Part shown: positions 16,220-40,050 of the stretch, piece after piece
Position numbering within the stretch: the stretch's first letter is position 1
Layout: each line of letters begins with the position of its first letter
Virus record (IMG/VR): IMGVR_UViG_3300049048_000105
Coordinates: 1-51,234 of that record
Source: a virus
Strand: one strand, 5' to 3'
DNA length: 51,234 nt
Notes under the pieces: model-generated
The model's input: only the letters and a program-made list of their open reading frames with translations
Database searches by the model: none
What the model was told of the DNA's origin: nothing
Program-made: the position numbers and the translations under genes

Positions 16220-16371
16220 GTGGTTCGGTACACTGACCTGGGGCAAACAAGTAGAACTGCCTGAGAGTGTACCACGGGTAAGAGTCCCCTGCAACCCACT
16301 ATCGCCCGCCGCCAGCATTGCAGCTGCGCGGCTATTCGCGCTGCCGTGGTGCAGCTCAGAGGAGTAGGATT

Positions 16372-16977
16372 ATGGACAGCCAGCCGGAAACTAATGAGGA
16401 TCAATTCGCTTTTGATCCTGCATTCCTCGAAAGCCGAAATATTACCTGGGATGCAAAGGGCATGTTGATCTACCTTGTTAGCAAGCAAGGAGAACCTACA
16501 TCGCTTCAAGAACTCATTGATGCTTCACCTGCGGGCCGGGATAAGGTTCTGAATCTTCTCGGTCAACTTGAAACTGCCGGATATATTCGAAAAGTTCGAG
16601 ACACTGTCGAGGGGCGGTTTCAACCCACACGGTACATCATCAATTTCAGGCCAGAATATTCAGCCTATACCCAATATGTCTACCTCATTACGGATGGTCA
16701 ATTACAAAAAATTGGCATGAGCCGTACACCAAAGGCCCGTATTCGGGCCATCGAATTTCAAGCAAAGGTTCCCATCACGACACTGCACATCATCGCCGCC
16801 GAAAACATGTCGGAGCTGGAAGAATGTCTGCACCTCAAGTTCGCTCGAAGACGAATATCTGGGGAGTGGTTCGCGCTCGATCCGGATGATGTGGCGTGGG
16901 TTCAATCTCTATCCAACGTAAGTATCGACGACTGCGCAGCCATTCGCGCCTCGCTCGACTTGGAAGCGGAGGGCTAA
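16372..16977 (+). CDS. Winged-helix plus GIY-YIG (T5orf172/Mug113-like) protein
   Basis: 201 aa from ATG 16372 (GAGGAG upstream). Residues 15-85 look like a winged helix (SLQELIDASPAGRDKVLNLLGQLETAGYIRKV). Residues 100-185 have the GIY-YIG-type pattern of the T5orf172/Mug113 group (YVYLITDGQLQKIGMSR, LEECLHLKFARRRISGEWFAL). Such domains may nick DNA or have lost activity. It is AT-richer than its neighbours and lies 4 bases before the initiator gene. Confidence 0.75.
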   Translation: MDSQPETNEDQFAFDPAFLESRNITWDAKGMLIYLVSKQGEPTSLQELIDASPAGRDKVLNLLGQLETAGYIRKVRDTVEGRFQPTRYIINFRPEYSAYTQYVYLITDGQLQKIGMSRTPKARIRAIEFQAKVPITTLHIIAAENMSELEECLHLKFARRRISGEWFALDPDDVAWVQSLSNVSIDDCAAIRASLDLEAEG

Positions 16978-16981
16978 GGCT

Positions 16982-18118
16982 ATGGCAGCATATACAGCAA
17001 CACCTACCGTCATGGCCTTCAAGGACATGGCCTTCCACGGCAATGTCGTGCCTATGACGTGGTACCACCATCTCACGCTGGAGGATGGCAAACCAAACCT
17101 TCCGGCCATTATCATCCTCTCGGACATTGTGTACTGGTATCGGCCCGTTGAAATCCGCGATGAAGCCACCGGCATGGTGGTCGGATATCGCGCGAAGTTC
17201 AAAGCCGACCAGCTGCAACGCAACTACGATCAGTTCGCCGAGCAGTTCGGATTTACAAAGCGCCAAGCGAAGGATGCTATCAATTACCTGATCAGCCGAG
17301 GCCTCATTACCCGCGAATTCCGCACCGTTCCTGGGCCAGGCGGCTCACTCTTAGGGAACGTGATGTTTGTCCAACCCCTGCCAGAAGCCATCCAGAAGAT
17401 CAACCAACTGGCCCCTCGGCACCCACTTTATCGAGCTGGAGAGGACCAGCACCCCTCTGACGTTATAACGCCGGAGGGGTCTGAGGATGCCCCCCCCTAT
17501 GACGATATACCGCCAGAGGGGGATCATCCTACCGATCCCCCTATGACGTTTAAACGTCAGACATTAACAGAGAGTACAACAGAGACTCCTACACAGAATT
17601 CTGTTAATGATCCATCCATGCATCCCGGAGGCGATCGCGAGAACGAGAAGCCGAACGGGGATGGATGGATGGATGGATCATTTCGTAATTGGGAAGAGCT
17701 TTGTGGAACGGAGCAGGGACGGTTCCTCTATGAAGCCGGAGTTCGATCCCTTTCCGCTGCTCGTGAATTGATTCACATTCCATTAGAGGTGATGCAGGCG
17801 GAGTGGGAGCGGGTACAGGTGGGGACCGCCAGGGACAAGGCGGCGACGCTGATCCTGAACCTGCGCGGCCTGCCACCGCTGCCGGCGGCCGCGCCAGCGG
17901 AACCGGCCTACGCCCCGGCAGCGGATCAACGGCGACCAGACTGGGTGCCGCTATACGCCTGGGCCGAGATGCAGGAGAGGATTCGCGACATGCTCACTGG
18001 CGCACGACTGGTTGATGGGCAGATTGTCGCCACTCACCCGATCATGACGGAGATGCTTCGTGCCCCACAAAACGCCCTCTACTTTGAATTTTTGACTAAT
18101 CAAGAGGTGGCAGCATGA
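16982..18118 (+). CDS. Phage replication initiator, winged-helix (O/DnaD-like)
   Basis: 378 aa. The N terminus (about residues 10-130) fits a replication-initiator winged helix: WYHHLTLEDGKPNLPAIIILSDIVYWY and EQFGFTKRQAKDAINYLISRGLI. Residues 150-240 are a disordered, acidic and Thr/Pro-rich linker whose DNA carries three iterons. The C terminus may contact the helicase loader. Lambda O has the same plan, with its origin in its own gene. The stop overlaps the loader start by 4 bases (ATGA). Confidence 0.8.
   Translation: MAAYTATPTVMAFKDMAFHGNVVPMTWYHHLTLEDGKPNLPAIIILSDIVYWYRPVEIRDEATGMVVGYRAKFKADQLQRNYDQFAEQFGFTKRQAKDAINYLISRGLITREFRTVPGPGGSLLGNVMFVQPLPEAIQKINQLAPRHPLYRAGEDQHPSDVITPEGSEDAPPYDDIPPEGDHPTDPPMTFKRQTLTESTTETPTQNSVNDPSMHPGGDRENEKPNGDGWMDGSFRNWEELCGTEQGRFLYEAGVRSLSAARELIHIPLEVMQAEWERVQVGTARDKAATLILNLRGLPPLPAAAPAEPAYAPAADQRRPDWVPLYAWAEMQERIRDMLTGARLVDGQIVATHPIMTEMLRAPQNALYFEFLTNQEVAA
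17452..17565. other. Putative replication origin: iterons inside the initiator gene
   Basis: Three 28-base related elements begin at 17452, 17494 and 17538 (spacing 42 and 44). All start CCCCTNTGACG. The first two end GAGGGG and are near-palindromic with CCCCT and GAGGGG ends; the third has the central palindrome ACGTTTAAACGT but lacks the right end. A weaker copy starts at 17413. An AT-richer segment with ACAGAATTCTGT follows at 17594. This is the layout of a lambda-type origin. Confidence 0.75.
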
Positions 18119-18798
18119 GCGACGATGCTTGTTGTACCACGTGCGGCGGCGCTGGCTACTACGTCCTGGACGTGGATATCCACGATCCGGAGTTCGGGAA
18201 GCTTCAGCCATGCAGCTGTAGGACAAAGGCGAAAACGGCCAAGTTGCTGAAGAAATCCGACGTGAACCCGACCAAGACCTTCGACAGCTTTACGGCCAGT
18301 TTCGCGCCGGCGGCCTACCGCGCGGCGCGGGCCTACGCTATGGCTCCTGGTGGCATTCTGTACCTGCACGGGGACCCTGGATGCGGAAAGACCCACCTGG
18401 CCTACGCGATCGCTAATTCCGCCCTTTCTGAGGGCACTGAGGCGGCTTTCCGGGTGGTTCCTGATCTGCTCTTCGAGATGCGTTCGAGCTTCAAAAGCCG
18501 GGGCGAGGATAGCTTTGATGCCAAGCTGGAGCGGCTGCGCGTCATCCCGTTGCTCGTCCTCGACGACTACGGCGCCGAGCGGTCCTCGGACTGGGCGACC
18601 GAGCTGCTGTTCCAGATCATCAACCACCGGTATGAGCGGCACCTGGCCACCATCATCACCAGCAACCTGCCGCCAACGCACGCGCACTATAGCCCGCGGC
18701 TCCAATCGCGGTTTGATGACCAGGCGGCCGCAACAGTGGTGCACATTCTGGCGGCCGACTATCGCCGGCGGCCGATGACGGAACGGGTGGCCGCCTGA
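18115..18798 (+). CDS. DnaC-like helicase loader ATPase
   Basis: 227 aa. An N-terminal zinc motif (CTTCGGAG... CSC) is followed by an AAA+ core: Walker A GDPGCGKTH, Walker B LLVLDDYGAE, sensor I TSNLPP. This is the DnaC/DnaI pattern of proteins that load the replicative helicase. It is coupled to the initiator gene. Together they should open the intragenic origin and recruit the host helicase. Confidence 0.88.
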   Translation: MSDDACCTTCGGAGYYVLDVDIHDPEFGKLQPCSCRTKAKTAKLLKKSDVNPTKTFDSFTASFAPAAYRAARAYAMAPGGILYLHGDPGCGKTHLAYAIANSALSEGTEAAFRVVPDLLFEMRSSFKSRGEDSFDAKLERLRVIPLLVLDDYGAERSSDWATELLFQIINHRYERHLATIITSNLPPTHAHYSPRLQSRFDDQAAATVVHILAADYRRRPMTERVAA

Positions 18799-19757: not shown

Positions 19758-21290
19758 ATGGACACTGGTATGCAGATACTCCTCTTGCTGGTAGCGGTCG
19801 GCCTGGTCGGCCTGCTGAAGGGCAAAAAGATCATCGGCGAGTACCGCGCCTTCACCGCCTGGCGTCGGGGCGAGTATGCCGCAGCCCTTGCTGGTGGGCC
19901 AGTGTCCTCAGCCCCCCCTTCCGAGTCATCAACCCCGTCGGCGCCACCCGCTGTGATTGATACCCGCACCCTGTCGGGCGCCGGAACCGCACTCCTCAAT
20001 CCGCCGGCGGACCTCCGCACCGCCCTGGACTTTATCAAGGCGCGGGCGTCCAAACCCTTTCCGTTTCCGCTGGGCTGGCGCCTGACCTCAGGGGGCAAGC
20101 CTGACTGCGTGTACGCCTCGCTAGTGGGCGATGTCAACCACATCGCCCTGACGGGCTTCACCGACTCGGGCAAGGACTCCTGGGCCGCCCAGGCGCTGCT
20201 GTCGATGGCCCTCACGAACACCCCGGACACGCTCCAGCTGGCCATCATTGATGGCAAGGGCGGCCTGTCGTGGATTGGCTGGGAGAACAAGGCCCACGTC
20301 TGGCTGATGGCCGAGCAGCCCGAGGATATGCGCCCCGCGATGGACCGGCTCAAAGCCGAGCGCGAACGCCGGCAGCAGATCCTCAAGGCGGCCCGCTGCG
20401 AGAAGTGGGAAGAGTACAACGCCGGCGATATGCCGCTCATGGTCGTCTTTGTCAGCGAGCTGATGCTGCTCCAGGATGCCACCAGCAAGACCGAGCTGGC
20501 CGACTGGCTCAACACCGAGCTGACGTCAGCTCGGGCGGCCGGCATTCGCTACATCGTGTCTGGCCAGACGTTCACCCGCCTGGATACCCGCTGGCGATCG
20601 CAGATCGGCCTCTACATTGCGGGCTACCAACCCCGCGGCGACGCGGACGAGCCAAACACGTCGTTTACGACTAAGGAGCTGCGCGAGCTGGGGTCCAACG
20701 CCGACGGCGCTGCGTTCGGTGTGCCGCCCTCGGCGCTCCCGGTGCCGCCGGCGGGATCGGGTGTGTTCACCTGCGTCCAGGGCCGCACGGTCCTCACGGT
20801 CCGGGCCTCGTACCTGAACAAAGAGCATCGGCTGGCGCTGCTCAATACGCTGCCCAATCGGGCTGTGGCGGCCGTCGCGCCAGCCCGCCCAGTGCGCTCC
20901 GCAGCGGACATGGATGTTCTTCAAAACCTTCTTCAGACCGGCCAGGCGCTGCCCATCGAGGAAGAACGTTCGTCAGGGCGTGAAGAACGTTCTTCTTCCC
21001 TTCAGAGTGCGATAAAAGAACATTCGGAAGAACCTTCTTCACCGGGAAGAACTTTGGTCGAGTCACGCTCAAAAACGGGATCGTCGGTGGTCTTTGTAGA
21101 ACTCCCGTTGCCGGAGGATGAGGTGCCGTTCGAGGAGCAGCGCCGCATCATTGAGACTGCGCCGCGAGCAAGAAATCGCCGCGCGCTCACGATCGATCTC
21201 TACGGGACTGATGGTGGGAAAAAGGCTGGCTGGGTCAAGAAGGTGTGTGATGCCCTCGGGCTGTTGCCGCCTCAGGGGGTGGCGCAGTAG
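19758..21290 (+). CDS. FtsK/SpoIIIE-like DNA translocase
   Basis: 510 aa. One N-terminal hydrophobic segment (MQILLLLVAVGLVGLL), then a FtsK-type motor: Walker A GFTDSGKDS (about residue 135), LAIIDGKGG, and Walker B PLMVVFVSEL. A charged, Ser/Glu-rich tail (residues 395-440) is encoded by GAAGAAC/GTTCTTC repeats, with a last domain of about 60 residues. It would pump double-stranded DNA, in transfer or segregation of the element. Such a gene is unusual for a siphovirus and fits the replication-relaxation gene at 0.2 kb. Confidence 0.83.
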   Translation: MDTGMQILLLLVAVGLVGLLKGKKIIGEYRAFTAWRRGEYAAALAGGPVSSAPPSESSTPSAPPAVIDTRTLSGAGTALLNPPADLRTALDFIKARASKPFPFPLGWRLTSGGKPDCVYASLVGDVNHIALTGFTDSGKDSWAAQALLSMALTNTPDTLQLAIIDGKGGLSWIGWENKAHVWLMAEQPEDMRPAMDRLKAERERRQQILKAARCEKWEEYNAGDMPLMVVFVSELMLLQDATSKTELADWLNTELTSARAAGIRYIVSGQTFTRLDTRWRSQIGLYIAGYQPRGDADEPNTSFTTKELRELGSNADGAAFGVPPSALPVPPAGSGVFTCVQGRTVLTVRASYLNKEHRLALLNTLPNRAVAAVAPARPVRSAADMDVLQNLLQTGQALPIEEERSSGREERSSSLQSAIKEHSEEPSSPGRTLVESRSKTGSSVVFVELPLPEDEVPFEEQRRIIETAPRARNRRALTIDLYGTDGGKKAGWVKKVCDALGLLPPQGVAQ

Positions 21291-21654: not shown

Positions 21655-22626
21655 ATGGACGTATTTGAGACCTATGCCCAACGAAAGAAACGAACAGAGC
21701 AGGCTGGTCAGCCCGATGTTTATGAGTATGATGAGATTCCACAAACCTTCCGACAGCAGGTACTGACGATTTGCGACTCCTGTATAGGTCCCTACCAATT
21801 ACGTAGAGTCCATGGTAATCATCTCATTAACCCATCCTCCCATCCTATCTGGACAATTATCCATGATGGATTTGCAGATGCTATAGGATTCGATTCACTG
21901 AGTCATAGTCACAAAAATCCTTATGAGAAGTGTGTTGATTACCTTAAGTCGAATGACACTGACACTGACAATGTTCTTGGTTTAATCGAGGCAATATTTA
22001 TTGTCCTTCTTAATGTTGAAGATGATGAAGATCTCGCACAGCAATATCCATTGCAAGGTTCTGCTTCCAAGGCCGTTGAACTTCTCAACTTTCGTTTTAA
22101 GCAGAACAATCTTGGATATCAATTAGTCAGTGGGAAGATTATTCGTCTAGACTCAGAATACATTCACTCCGAAATCGTCAAGAATGCCTTGCAATTACTT
22201 CGTGGATCGTCTTTCGCTGGCGCATCACAGGAGTTCTGGAAGGCCCACTCACACTACACGCAAGAGAATTATAAAGAAGCCCTTGTCGAAGCGCACAAAG
22301 CGTTTGAGAGCACGATGAAAACCATCTGTGATCTTCGGGGTTGGGGCTATGTCGATCCAAGTAGGCCAAATCTATCTCCCTCAGCAAAACCCTTGGTAGA
22401 TACTATGATTCGGGAAAAGCTGATTCCCGAATTTCTATCAACCCATCTCAAGGGGTTAGCAAATGTTTTAGTCGAGGGTGCGCCACTTCTTCGCAATATA
22501 CTCGCTGGACATGGCCAGGGTGCAGTTGTGGTCGAGGTTCCTGCCTACTTTGCCGCCTATGCCCTTCATCTCACGGCATCCAATATCGTGTTTCTTGTTG
22601 AGGCACATAAGGTGAAGCCGCTTTAG
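21655..22626 (+). CDS. STM4504/CBY_0614 family protein with Abi-type HEPN C terminus
   Basis: 323 aa. The N terminus (MDVFETYAQRKKR, DVYEYDEIPQTFRQQV) has the pattern of the STM4504/CBY_0614 family. The C terminus matches abortive-infection HEPN domains: YKEALVEAHKAFESTMKTIC, then RNILAGHGQG with the Arg...His RNase motif, and YALHLTASNIVFLVE. HEPN proteins of this kind are toxic ribonucleases in phage defence. AT-rich composition marks it as cargo, perhaps for superinfection exclusion. The role is inferred. Confidence 0.75.
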   Translation: MDVFETYAQRKKRTEQAGQPDVYEYDEIPQTFRQQVLTICDSCIGPYQLRRVHGNHLINPSSHPIWTIIHDGFADAIGFDSLSHSHKNPYEKCVDYLKSNDTDTDNVLGLIEAIFIVLLNVEDDEDLAQQYPLQGSASKAVELLNFRFKQNNLGYQLVSGKIIRLDSEYIHSEIVKNALQLLRGSSFAGASQEFWKAHSHYTQENYKEALVEAHKAFESTMKTICDLRGWGYVDPSRPNLSPSAKPLVDTMIREKLIPEFLSTHLKGLANVLVEGAPLLRNILAGHGQGAVVVEVPAYFAAYALHLTASNIVFLVEAHKVKPL

Positions 22627-23450: not shown

Positions 23451-25085
23451 ATGCCTCAGCCCATCACTGGCAATACCCTCTACTATGGCGACAACCTCAT
23501 CATCCTGCGCGACTATATTCCCAGCGAAAGCGTCGATCTCGTCTACCTCGACCCACCCTTCAACTCCAACCGGAACTACAATGTGCTGTTCAAGGATGAA
23601 GGTGGCAAGGAGAGTGAGTCCCAGATCGTTGCCTTTGAGGATACCTGGCACTGGAACCGCGTAGCTGAGGATACTTATACTGACCTCATAACAAACGCAG
23701 CTCCGGCCGTCAGCGACATGATTGGCGCGCTCCGTGGCTTTGTCGGTACCAACCAGATGATGGCTTATTTGGTGATGATGGCGGCCCGCCTGGTCGAGCT
23801 GCACCGCGTGTTGAAGCCAACGGGAAGTCTCTATCTGCACTGCGATCCAACGGCAAGCCATTACCTCAAAATCATTTTGGACACCATTTTTGGAGTAAGT
23901 GCTTTTCGGAATGAGATCATCTGGAAGCGGACAAGTAACCATAGTGATGCGAACCGCTATGGTGCTGTTCATGATGTCATCTTCTTTTACTCAAAATCGT
24001 CTCAATGGGTATGGAATAAACAGTACATGCCTCGGGATGACTCTGCCTTGAAAACACATGACCTTGCCCGTGATCCTGATGGACGGATATATCGTCTCGA
24101 TAATATGTCAGCTGCCGGTCAAGGCCCAGCGCGTACCTTTGGTGACAAGCAGCTTGAACCGCCTATAGGAAATCACTGGCGTTTTTCACAAGAAAATATT
24201 GATCGGTTTTTGCAAGAAGGCCGCATCGTATTTACTAAAAACGGAAAACCACGATACAAGCGGTATTTGGATGAATCGCCAGGCTTCGCTGTCCAAGATA
24301 CTTGGACCGATATTCAACCTATAAATTCAGGTGCTCGTGAAACATTAGGCTATCCAACTCAAAAACCACTGTCATTATTGGAGCGCATCATTCAATCCAG
24401 TAGCAACCCTGGCGACATCGTGCTCGATCCCTTCTGTGGATGTGGGACAACGATCGCCGCAGCCCAGAAGCTCGGCCGAACATGGGTTGGCATTGATATA
24501 ACCCACCTCTCGATTGCGCTCCAAAAGTATCGGCTCCAGGAGATGTTTCCCGGCATCTCGTTCAAGGTCGTGGGCGAACCAAAGGACATTGGCGCAGCCC
24601 ACCAGCTCGCCAGCGAGGACCGCTACCAGTTTCAGTGGTGGGCCTTATCGCTGATCAAGGCACGGCCGCTCGGCGGTGACAGCGGCAGCAAGCAGGGCAA
24701 AAAGGGCAGTGACAAGGGAATCGACGGCGTGATTACCTTCATCGACGACGCGACGAATAAGCCCAAGAAGGTCCTGGTGCAGGTGAAGTCTGGCAAGGTC
24801 AAGAGCGGAGATATCCGCGACCTGGTTGGCACGCTCCAGCGTGAGGGCGGCGCGATCGGCGTCTTCATCAGCCTTGAACCAGCCTCGAAAGATATGACCA
24901 CCGAAGCCGTGAGTGCCGGCTACTATGACTCACCTGGCTGGGGCAAGAAGTACCCTCGGGTGCAGATTCTCACCATTGAGGCGCTCCTGCGTGGTGCCGA
25001 GGTGCAGATGCCGCCGGCCTATGGCACGTTCAAGCAGGCCCAGCGGGCATCCACCGATACTGATCAAATAGGCTTCGATGTCTAG
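23451..25085 (+). CDS. DNA methyltransferase fused to Mrr-like nuclease domain
   Basis: 544 aa. A beta-class order of motifs: [13 protein letters not shown] (motif IV, about residue 26) comes before [13 protein letters not shown] and WVGIDIT (motif I, about residue 320). The last 150 residues contain [11 protein letters not shown] and VLVQVKSG, the Asp...Gln-x-Lys core of Mrr/PD-(D/E)xK nucleases. So modification and possible cleavage are on one chain. It may protect the element or restrict rivals. It lies between two copies of a palindrome-terminator module. Confidence 0.88.
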
Positions 25086-38967: not shown

Positions 38968-40050
38968 CTAGATACCCTTGAGGACAAATACAGCCTCGGG
39001 GTCCTGAATGACAACCATAGAGGTCTGCCAGGCCTCGCCCTCAATGCGGGGCGGCTTGTCGAACTTGGCCTCGGCGCGGATCACGCGGCCGGGATCGGAC
39101 TGGCCAGCCGCGCGGCCCATTGCGGTGTAGCCCAGGGCGTTGGGGATGACCGCGGGCACGTCGGCGTCGGGCAGGTCCAGGGTCACGTCGCGGCCGGTCT
39201 CGGCCACAAAGACCATGGAGCCGGCGCTCAGGAAGCGCTGGTCGCCGGTCTGGGTGCGGGTGCGCAGGTCGTAGCGCTCGATCGGCGGCAGGCCGTCCTC
39301 GGCCAGGACCGCGTTGATGGCCGCAATCGACGAGCGCGACGTGGACTGCAACGCCCCGCCCACGATGGTCACCTTGGCCGCGCGGTTGGACGCCTTGGCA
39401 TTGCGGGCCAGCTTGGTGGTGGCGGCCTGGCTGGTGATGATCCGGCTCACGGTGTAGCCCTTCGATTGCAGCAGGTCCACCCCAGCATAGATGTCGTCGA
39501 ACGGGTCGTAGGTGTCATCGGTCCAGTCGCCGGCGACGTTGACCCGGTGGCCGGCCGGGTTGGACAGCGGCACGTCTTCCTCGTAGCCGTTGTCGCCGCG
39601 CAGTTGCACCTCAGCGTTTTCCAACGCCTGCCAGCGCCACAGCTCATTGACCTCGGCCAGGGCCAGGTTGAGCACGACATCGGCCCAGTTGGTGACCTGA
39701 GCCACGGCCTGCATCTCGGCGTTCTGCCCCAGGATGCGGAGCAGGGCATCATAATCACGGCCGGTGAACTCGCGGGCGATGTCCGACTCGGCCAGCTTCA
39801 CATCGAACGAGCCGATGAGGTCGCCGCCTTTCTTCTGGGTCGGCGAGTAGCGGGTGCCGGCGTTGGCCAGGACGGTGCGGTAGCGGATCGATTCCTCGGT
39901 GAACTGGTTGTCCGGGACCGTCACCTCGGGGAGCAGCTCGGCGCCGATGTAGCGCCGGGCCGGCCGGCCGAACTGGGCCAGCGGATTGCGCGCCAGCCGC
40001 ATGAGCGTGCCGTCGCTCATCATGGTGGCGATGAGAGTCAAAATATCCAT
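38968..40050 (-). CDS. Major capsid protein
   Basis: 360 aa, AGGAGG upstream. Pattern of the gpE-type capsid family (HK97 fold): RRYIGAELLPEVTVPDNQFTEE, RGDNGYEEDVPL, a spine-helix region with DDIYAGVDLLQSKGYTVSRIITS, and QTSMVVIQDPEAVFVLKG at the end. Position after scaffold and decoration genes agrees. Confidence 0.88.
   Translation of the reverse strand: MDILTLIATMMSDGTLMRLARNPLAQFGRPARRYIGAELLPEVTVPDNQFTEESIRYRTVLANAGTRYSPTQKKGGDLIGSFDVKLAESDIAREFTGRDYDALLRILGQNAEMQAVAQVTNWADVVLNLALAEVNELWRWQALENAEVQLRGDNGYEEDVPLSNPAGHRVNVAGDWTDDTYDPFDDIYAGVDLLQSKGYTVSRIITSQAATTKLARNAKASNRAAKVTIVGGALQSTSRSSIAAINAVLAEDGLPPIERYDLRTRTQTGDQRFLSAGSMVFVAETGRDVTLDLPDADVPAVIPNALGYTAMGRAAGQSDPGRVIRAEAKFDKPPRIEGEAWQTSMVVIQDPEAVFVLKGI

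Follow-up and report, generated by a model that had tools for sequence, protein, structure and literature searches.

The region at 17452-17602 of the window, the 51,234-nucleotide stretch of viral DNA analyzed here (IMG/VR record IMGVR_UViG_3300049048_000105), is, judging from sequence comparison, very probably the replication origin of this phage, and it lies inside the phage's own initiator gene. The wider proposal, which we regard as evenly balanced, is that O-like initiators share a two-part origin code that combines fast-evolving iterons, which would be read by the recognition helix, with a nearly invariant 12-nucleotide word, ACARAGANTACT, which a conserved part of the initiator would recognize on one single strand. 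In other initiator classes, different words would take its place (GAAAAA repeats, 9-mers, or ATAGAT), so that the unwinding sequence would be a class signature and not merely AT-rich DNA. The opening of origins by phage initiators is usually ascribed to AT-richness. Should one 12-letter word indeed be kept from Chloroflexota to E. coli prophages and vary by initiator class and not by host, strand opening by these proteins would be sequence-specific and directly testable, and origins could be found in phage genomes from gene sequence alone.

The initiator gene (16982-18118, + strand) encodes a protein of 378 amino acids that matches PHROG 270, “replication initiation protein” (E = 7.8e-18), and the O-like PHROG 391 (E = 1.1e-9). 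It is directly followed by the gene for a DnaC-like helicase loader (18115-18798, + strand; PHROG 50, E = 7.5e-49). AlphaFold2 predicts a winged-helix N-terminal domain (residues 1 to 142), a disordered linker (residues 152 to 231), and a helical C-terminal part, with pLDDT values of mostly 93 to 98 over residues 11 to 140 and below 50 over residues 179 to 231. The linker, which is rich in proline, threonine, and glutamate, is the coding place of the iterons, the 12-mers, and an inverted repeat; the placement of the repeated elements in a disordered linker, proposed in an earlier note on this DNA, is thus borne out by the model. Comparison of the N-terminal domain with solved initiators, by sequence and by fold, yielded generic winged-helix matches only (best E = 0.02), and solved members of the RepA_N and DnaD initiators were matched neither in sequence nor in fold. 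The 51-kb viral contig also encodes an integrase, a tape measure protein, a capsid protein, and a terminase, with the early genes on the + strand and the late genes on the - strand. The host is likely a member of Chloroflexota because the nearest relatives by initiator sequence come from Herpetosiphon, which belongs to this phylum. The product of the gene just upstream of the initiator gene (16318-16977, + strand) carries a T5orf172/MUG113 domain at its C terminus, and its N-terminal part matches PHROG 270 (E = 2.5e-7).

Three related elements at the positions and spacing given in the earlier note were confirmed directly from the sequence. Iterons 1 (CCCCTCTGACGTTATAACGCCGGAGGGG, 17452-17479) and 2 (CCCCTATGACGATATACCGCCAGAGGGG, 17494-17521) are near-palindromes, with 12 and 11 of the 14 dyad pairs, respectively, and iteron 3 (CCCCTATGACGTTTAAACGTCAGACATT, 17538-17565) has 9 of the 14; the second follows the first by 42 bp and the third follows the second by 44 bp. 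Iteron 3 has lost its outer right arm, and its 16-bp core (TGACGTTTAAACGTCA, 17544-17559) is a perfect palindrome. The core common to the three is TGACG-6-CGYCR. The palindromic character noted earlier for the first two elements holds, but palindromes by themselves are not rare in the 51 kb, where five 28-bp windows reach 12 of 14 pairs and five perfect 16-bp palindromes occur. Because palindromes of such quality are present elsewhere in the window, it is the threefold recurrence of the element that carries the argument; this was reached by none of 1,000 synonymous shuffles that preserved the protein sequence and its codon counts. The iteron core, with up to 2 mismatches allowed, has no further site anywhere in the 51 kb, and no core was found at the midpoints between the iterons of the window.

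The description of the DNA following these elements as AT-richer also stands: the AT fraction is about 0.6 at 17550-17624, compared with 0.36 to 0.48 upstream, and ranges from 0.54 to 0.62 beside the last iteron, across 17525-17624. Within this stretch sit three tandem 12-mers (ACAGAGAGTACA, ACAGAGACTCCT, and ACACAGAATTCT; 17567-17602, + strand) that had been overlooked. These are degenerate copies of the 12-nucleotide word, matching it at 11, 11, and 10 of 12 positions, and are placed 7 bp past the last iteron core. The first two make up the best-scoring such pair anywhere in the 51 kb (22 of 24 positions), a score that 5 of 5,000 synonymous shuffles equaled. The spacer GACATTA (17560-17566, + strand) is the counterpart of GACAAAT, which separates the last iteron from the first 12-mer in relatives; when 83 clusters are aligned on the first 12-mer, they read ..AanGtgAgACaaAT-ACAGAGAtTACT-acAgAgAnTACt, and the window reads AACGTCAGACATTA-ACAGAGAGTACA-ACAGAGACTCCT. 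The 12-mers of the window are the putative DNA-unwinding element (DUE) of this phage. They are flanked by an inverted repeat, CATTAACAGA ... TCTGTTAATG (17562-17609), which was read from the sequence and whose arms pair when 17440-17610 is folded as DNA. Another inverted repeat, with 20-nucleotide arms (95%) separated by 37 nucleotides (17606-17682; DNA fold z = -4.65), is specific to the window and was rejected as a family feature, since just 9 of the 82 clusters reached ≤1/60. Lambda likewise carries an inverted repeat adjoining its AT-rich stretch.

Relatives were chosen by protein alone and comprise phages with 39 to 47% identical N-terminal domains together with 160 loci found with an alignment of that domain, which form 87 clusters. 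A full-length initiator query had no matches in the viral and genome collections, whereas the N-terminal alignment did find relatives. The N-terminal domain of the window is 39 to 47% identical to those of eight phage proteins and 59% identical to that of a Herpetosiphon prophage (L091). Class A origins are defined here by a PHROG 270 initiator and a 12-mer DUE. Across these phages, the linker protein changes, whereas iterons are kept at the same place, the opposite of the outcome that the earlier note had named as contrary to an origin within the initiator gene; at the level of sequence comparison, that reading is supported. In the segment that separates the winged helix from the 12-mers, 62 of the 81 testable clusters have a triple repeat equaled by ≤1/100 synonymous shuffles (P ≤ 0.01), with best lags of 22/23 and 44/45. 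The usual spacing of 22/23 bp, which is not class-defining (it is 25 in L091), differs from the 42 and 44 bp of the window. Since the step in the window is about twice the usual 22, its array looks like the family array minus every other site. Geobacillus phage PT9.1 carries four copies of GGGGTGTGACGTTNNAACGTCA, nearly the core of the window, at 22 bp (L002:3419-3506). L091 (2986-4014), the closest relative by protein, has a different core with a 25-bp step that is out of frame with the protein; the sequence and spacing of the iterons change fast while the 12-mer stays. Distances between iterons and between recognition helices remain correlated once the rest of the domain is taken into account (partial Mantel r = 0.34, P = 0.001). 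The rest of the N-terminal domain correlates with the iterons too, given the helix (0.235), so that the co-variation is only partly helix-specific.

Most relatives carry the 12-mer in tandem: at least one copy of ACARAGANTACT within 2 mismatches lies directly after the last iteron in 84 of the 87 class A clusters, and in the other 3 of 87 the frames are truncated or mis-started. Two close copies (9 to 18 nucleotides apart, ≤2 mismatches) were detected in 71 of 86 class A clusters, and in 51 of 86 at one mismatch. The word is kept in phages from Chloroflexota to E. coli, and its phase relative to the last iteron is fixed by the GACAAAT/GACATTA spacer. Its usual protein reading is TTEITTE. Inside this protein-defined motif, glutamate is encoded by GAG in 93% of the cases, compared with 40% elsewhere, lysine by AAG in 81% compared with 37%, and isoleucine by ATT in 91% compared with 42%. 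In 9 clusters, a 13-nucleotide step shifts the next copy to another reading frame. With hardly any variation among synonymous codons, and with the word read in a different frame in some relatives, the 12-mers are DNA-level elements. Weaker copies, partly in other frames, are found in Staphylococcus phage 96, mv4, and BhaS-171. A search of open-access papers turned up no description of the class-specific 12-mer; an earlier account in subscription reviews is possible.

The 12-mer follows the initiator class and not the host; it is carried by classes A, B, and C. A scan of viral contigs for the two-copy pattern returned at least 120 loci. About half of the matches listed fall outside class A, and nearly all of these are in other winged-helix phage initiators, again following an iteron array; among the PHROGs matched by the seven scan loci that were tested are 428, 678, 9773, and 270. 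In samples assembled by protein and scored by the criterion applied to class A, the pair is present in 11/11 clusters of the 9773-type class and 15/15 of the 428-type class, and was found in none of the 45 clusters of the DnaD-like class (class D) and not in the single lambda O (0/1). GAAAAA-type repeats occur in 37 of 45 class D clusters versus 1 of 86 in class A. The same division is seen within one host species, Geobacillus thermodenitrificans, where PT9.1 (class A) has 12-mers and PK5.1 (class D) has GAAAAA, and among B. subtilis phages, where PM1 has 12-mers and SPP1 has 9-mers. Within class A, the same 12-mer is found whether the next gene encodes a DnaC-like loader, a G39P-like loader, or a DnaB helicase. 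Two far relatives of class C, Vibrio phage 27Ua.3 and Flavobacterium phage elemoE, have no 12-mer pair, so the word is not universal. In the DnaD-like phage initiators (L441-L520), ACGATACGTC-type iterons are followed by the GAAAAA repeats, a second class of unwinding word.

Iterons and AT-rich DNA inside an initiator gene are already known from lambda and from SPP1 oriL. The comparison with lambda O drawn in the earlier note holds in layout, including the AT-rich stretch beside the last iteron: in lambda (iterons at 39034-39118 in gene O), as in the window, palindromic iterons after the DNA-binding domain precede an AT-rich stretch and then the loader gene. The lambda iteron starts are 20 to 24 bp apart, compared with 42 and 44 bp in the window, and the lambda AT stretch has no 12-mer pair, unlike class A. 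A similarity search with the initiator of the window did not bring up lambda. The SPP1 origin oriL, in gene 38, comprises direct repeats and an AT-rich DUE within the initiator gene and is bound by gp38 (PMC6316719). SPP1 thus resembles the window in having repeats and an AT-rich DUE inside the initiator gene and differs from it in initiator class and in the DUE repeat, a 9-mer (AACAATGATAACAATG). The best model for the 12-mers is RK2 oriV, which likewise has a winged-helix initiator and iterons adjoining repeated DUE elements; iteron plasmid origins of this type are not known to be intragenic. BLAST of the 12-mer array against plasmids and phages yielded no match, an outcome that follows from the filtering of simple repeats and so says nothing about absence. 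At oriV, TrfA binds the DUE 13-mers sequence-specifically on one single strand (PMC4081077). In the bacterial basal unwinding system and DnaD recognition element, short repeats that are recognized on one strand come after double-strand sites, an order that the window shares. The window differs from the basal unwinding system in lacking DnaA boxes, in its 12-nucleotide period, and in that its class follows the phage initiator.

Taken together, these comparisons suggest a mechanism in which dimers of the winged-helix N-terminal domain would recognize the palindromic iterons in duplex form, as their position, the relatives, and the co-variation indicate. Once assembled, the initiator would melt the AT-rich DNA beside them and keep hold of one strand through sequence-specific recognition of the tandem 12-mers, much as TrfA does with the 13-mers of RK2 and in line with the binding of lambda O to its iterons and to AT-rich single-stranded DNA (PMC7466680). 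The loader encoded by the next gene would deliver the replicative helicase, as in the lambda and SPP1 pathways. That the phage initiator itself reads the 12-mers is reasonably likely. Loaders, such as lambda P and DnaC, can bind single-stranded DNA, and this ability would allow a helicase loader, or the helicase, to be the reader instead; we consider this unlikely given that the class A 12-mer is the same before all three types of next gene. A reading by host DnaA is also quite improbable. The 12-mers would then serve as DnaA-trios (TTA-CTA in the top strand and 3'-AAT-GAT-5' opposite it), with the iterons replacing the DnaA boxes of the basal unwinding system. The perfect 12-mer does contain two trio-like triplets, whose order with respect to the double-strand sites is that of B. 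subtilis, where the trio consensus is 3'-GAT-5' (PMC8287927) and the top strand reads CTACTATTACTTCTACTA (PMC10201434). However, the ACAGAGA part of the 12-mer is conserved equally with the trio part, no DnaA box with ≤1 mismatch is present at 16.5-18.7 kb, and the class of unwinding element tracks the initiator and not the host in the pairs PT9.1 and PK5.1, and PM1 and SPP1. Because the 12-mer tracks the initiator class even within one host species, the phage initiator, not host DnaA, is probably the reader; its constancy across next-gene types, combined with this class dependence, makes both the loader and DnaA less likely than the initiator.

Two other explanations concern the repeats themselves. 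The three palindromes could be operators through which the initiator, or another winged-helix protein, regulates transcription, with replication beginning elsewhere. Their near-perfect dyads do resemble repressor sites, and the GC-skew minimum, which had been expected at the site, lies elsewhere: in the detrended cumulative skew it is at 26.3 kb and does not support the candidate origin, whereas the same calculation places the lambda minimum within 1 kb of ori. The skew has limited force in this phage, whose early and late genes are on opposite strands, so that it partly reflects gene strand. With the palindromes located mid-gene and not at a promoter, no additional sites at promoters, and the array and phased 12-mers conserved among relatives, operators are a very improbable explanation. 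It is scarcely credible that the repeats arose merely from repeated peptides or codon bias in a low-complexity linker, even though the linker is rich in a few residues and the 12-mer is usually read as TTEITTE. The 44-base iteron step is not a multiple of 3, hence not that of a peptide repeat, and the 25-bp step of L091 is likewise out of frame; a peptide repeat was rejected by the frame and shuffle tests, and the codon usage contradicts this explanation as well. Against an origin at 17452-17602 must be counted the degeneracy of the 12-mers in the window, the single outer arm of the third iteron, the failure of the initiator to match a solved one other than as a generic winged helix, and the Replic_Relax gene described below. 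The skew minimum, at about 26340, falls in an AT-rich stretch (26-27 kb; GC, 0.405).

A laboratory model for the class A origin is at hand, since DNA similar to a class A prophage initiator gene (L037:1815-2804) is present in 472 of 5,426 complete E. coli genomes. This initiator is annotated merely as a hypothetical or LvrA C-terminal domain-related protein. In the window, a Replic_Relax (PF13814) protein, assigned to a PHROG for “replication initiation by nicking,” is encoded close to the integrase end of the record (221-1198, - strand) and possibly represents a second replication or mobile system. The early region of this tailed phage includes a gene for an FtsK/SpoIIIE-like ATPase (19758-21290, + strand). 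A protein with AbiJ_NTD4 and DUF7014 domains (21655-22626, + strand) is probably a phage-borne abortive-infection defense gene product, and a DNA methyltransferase gene is located at 23451-25085.
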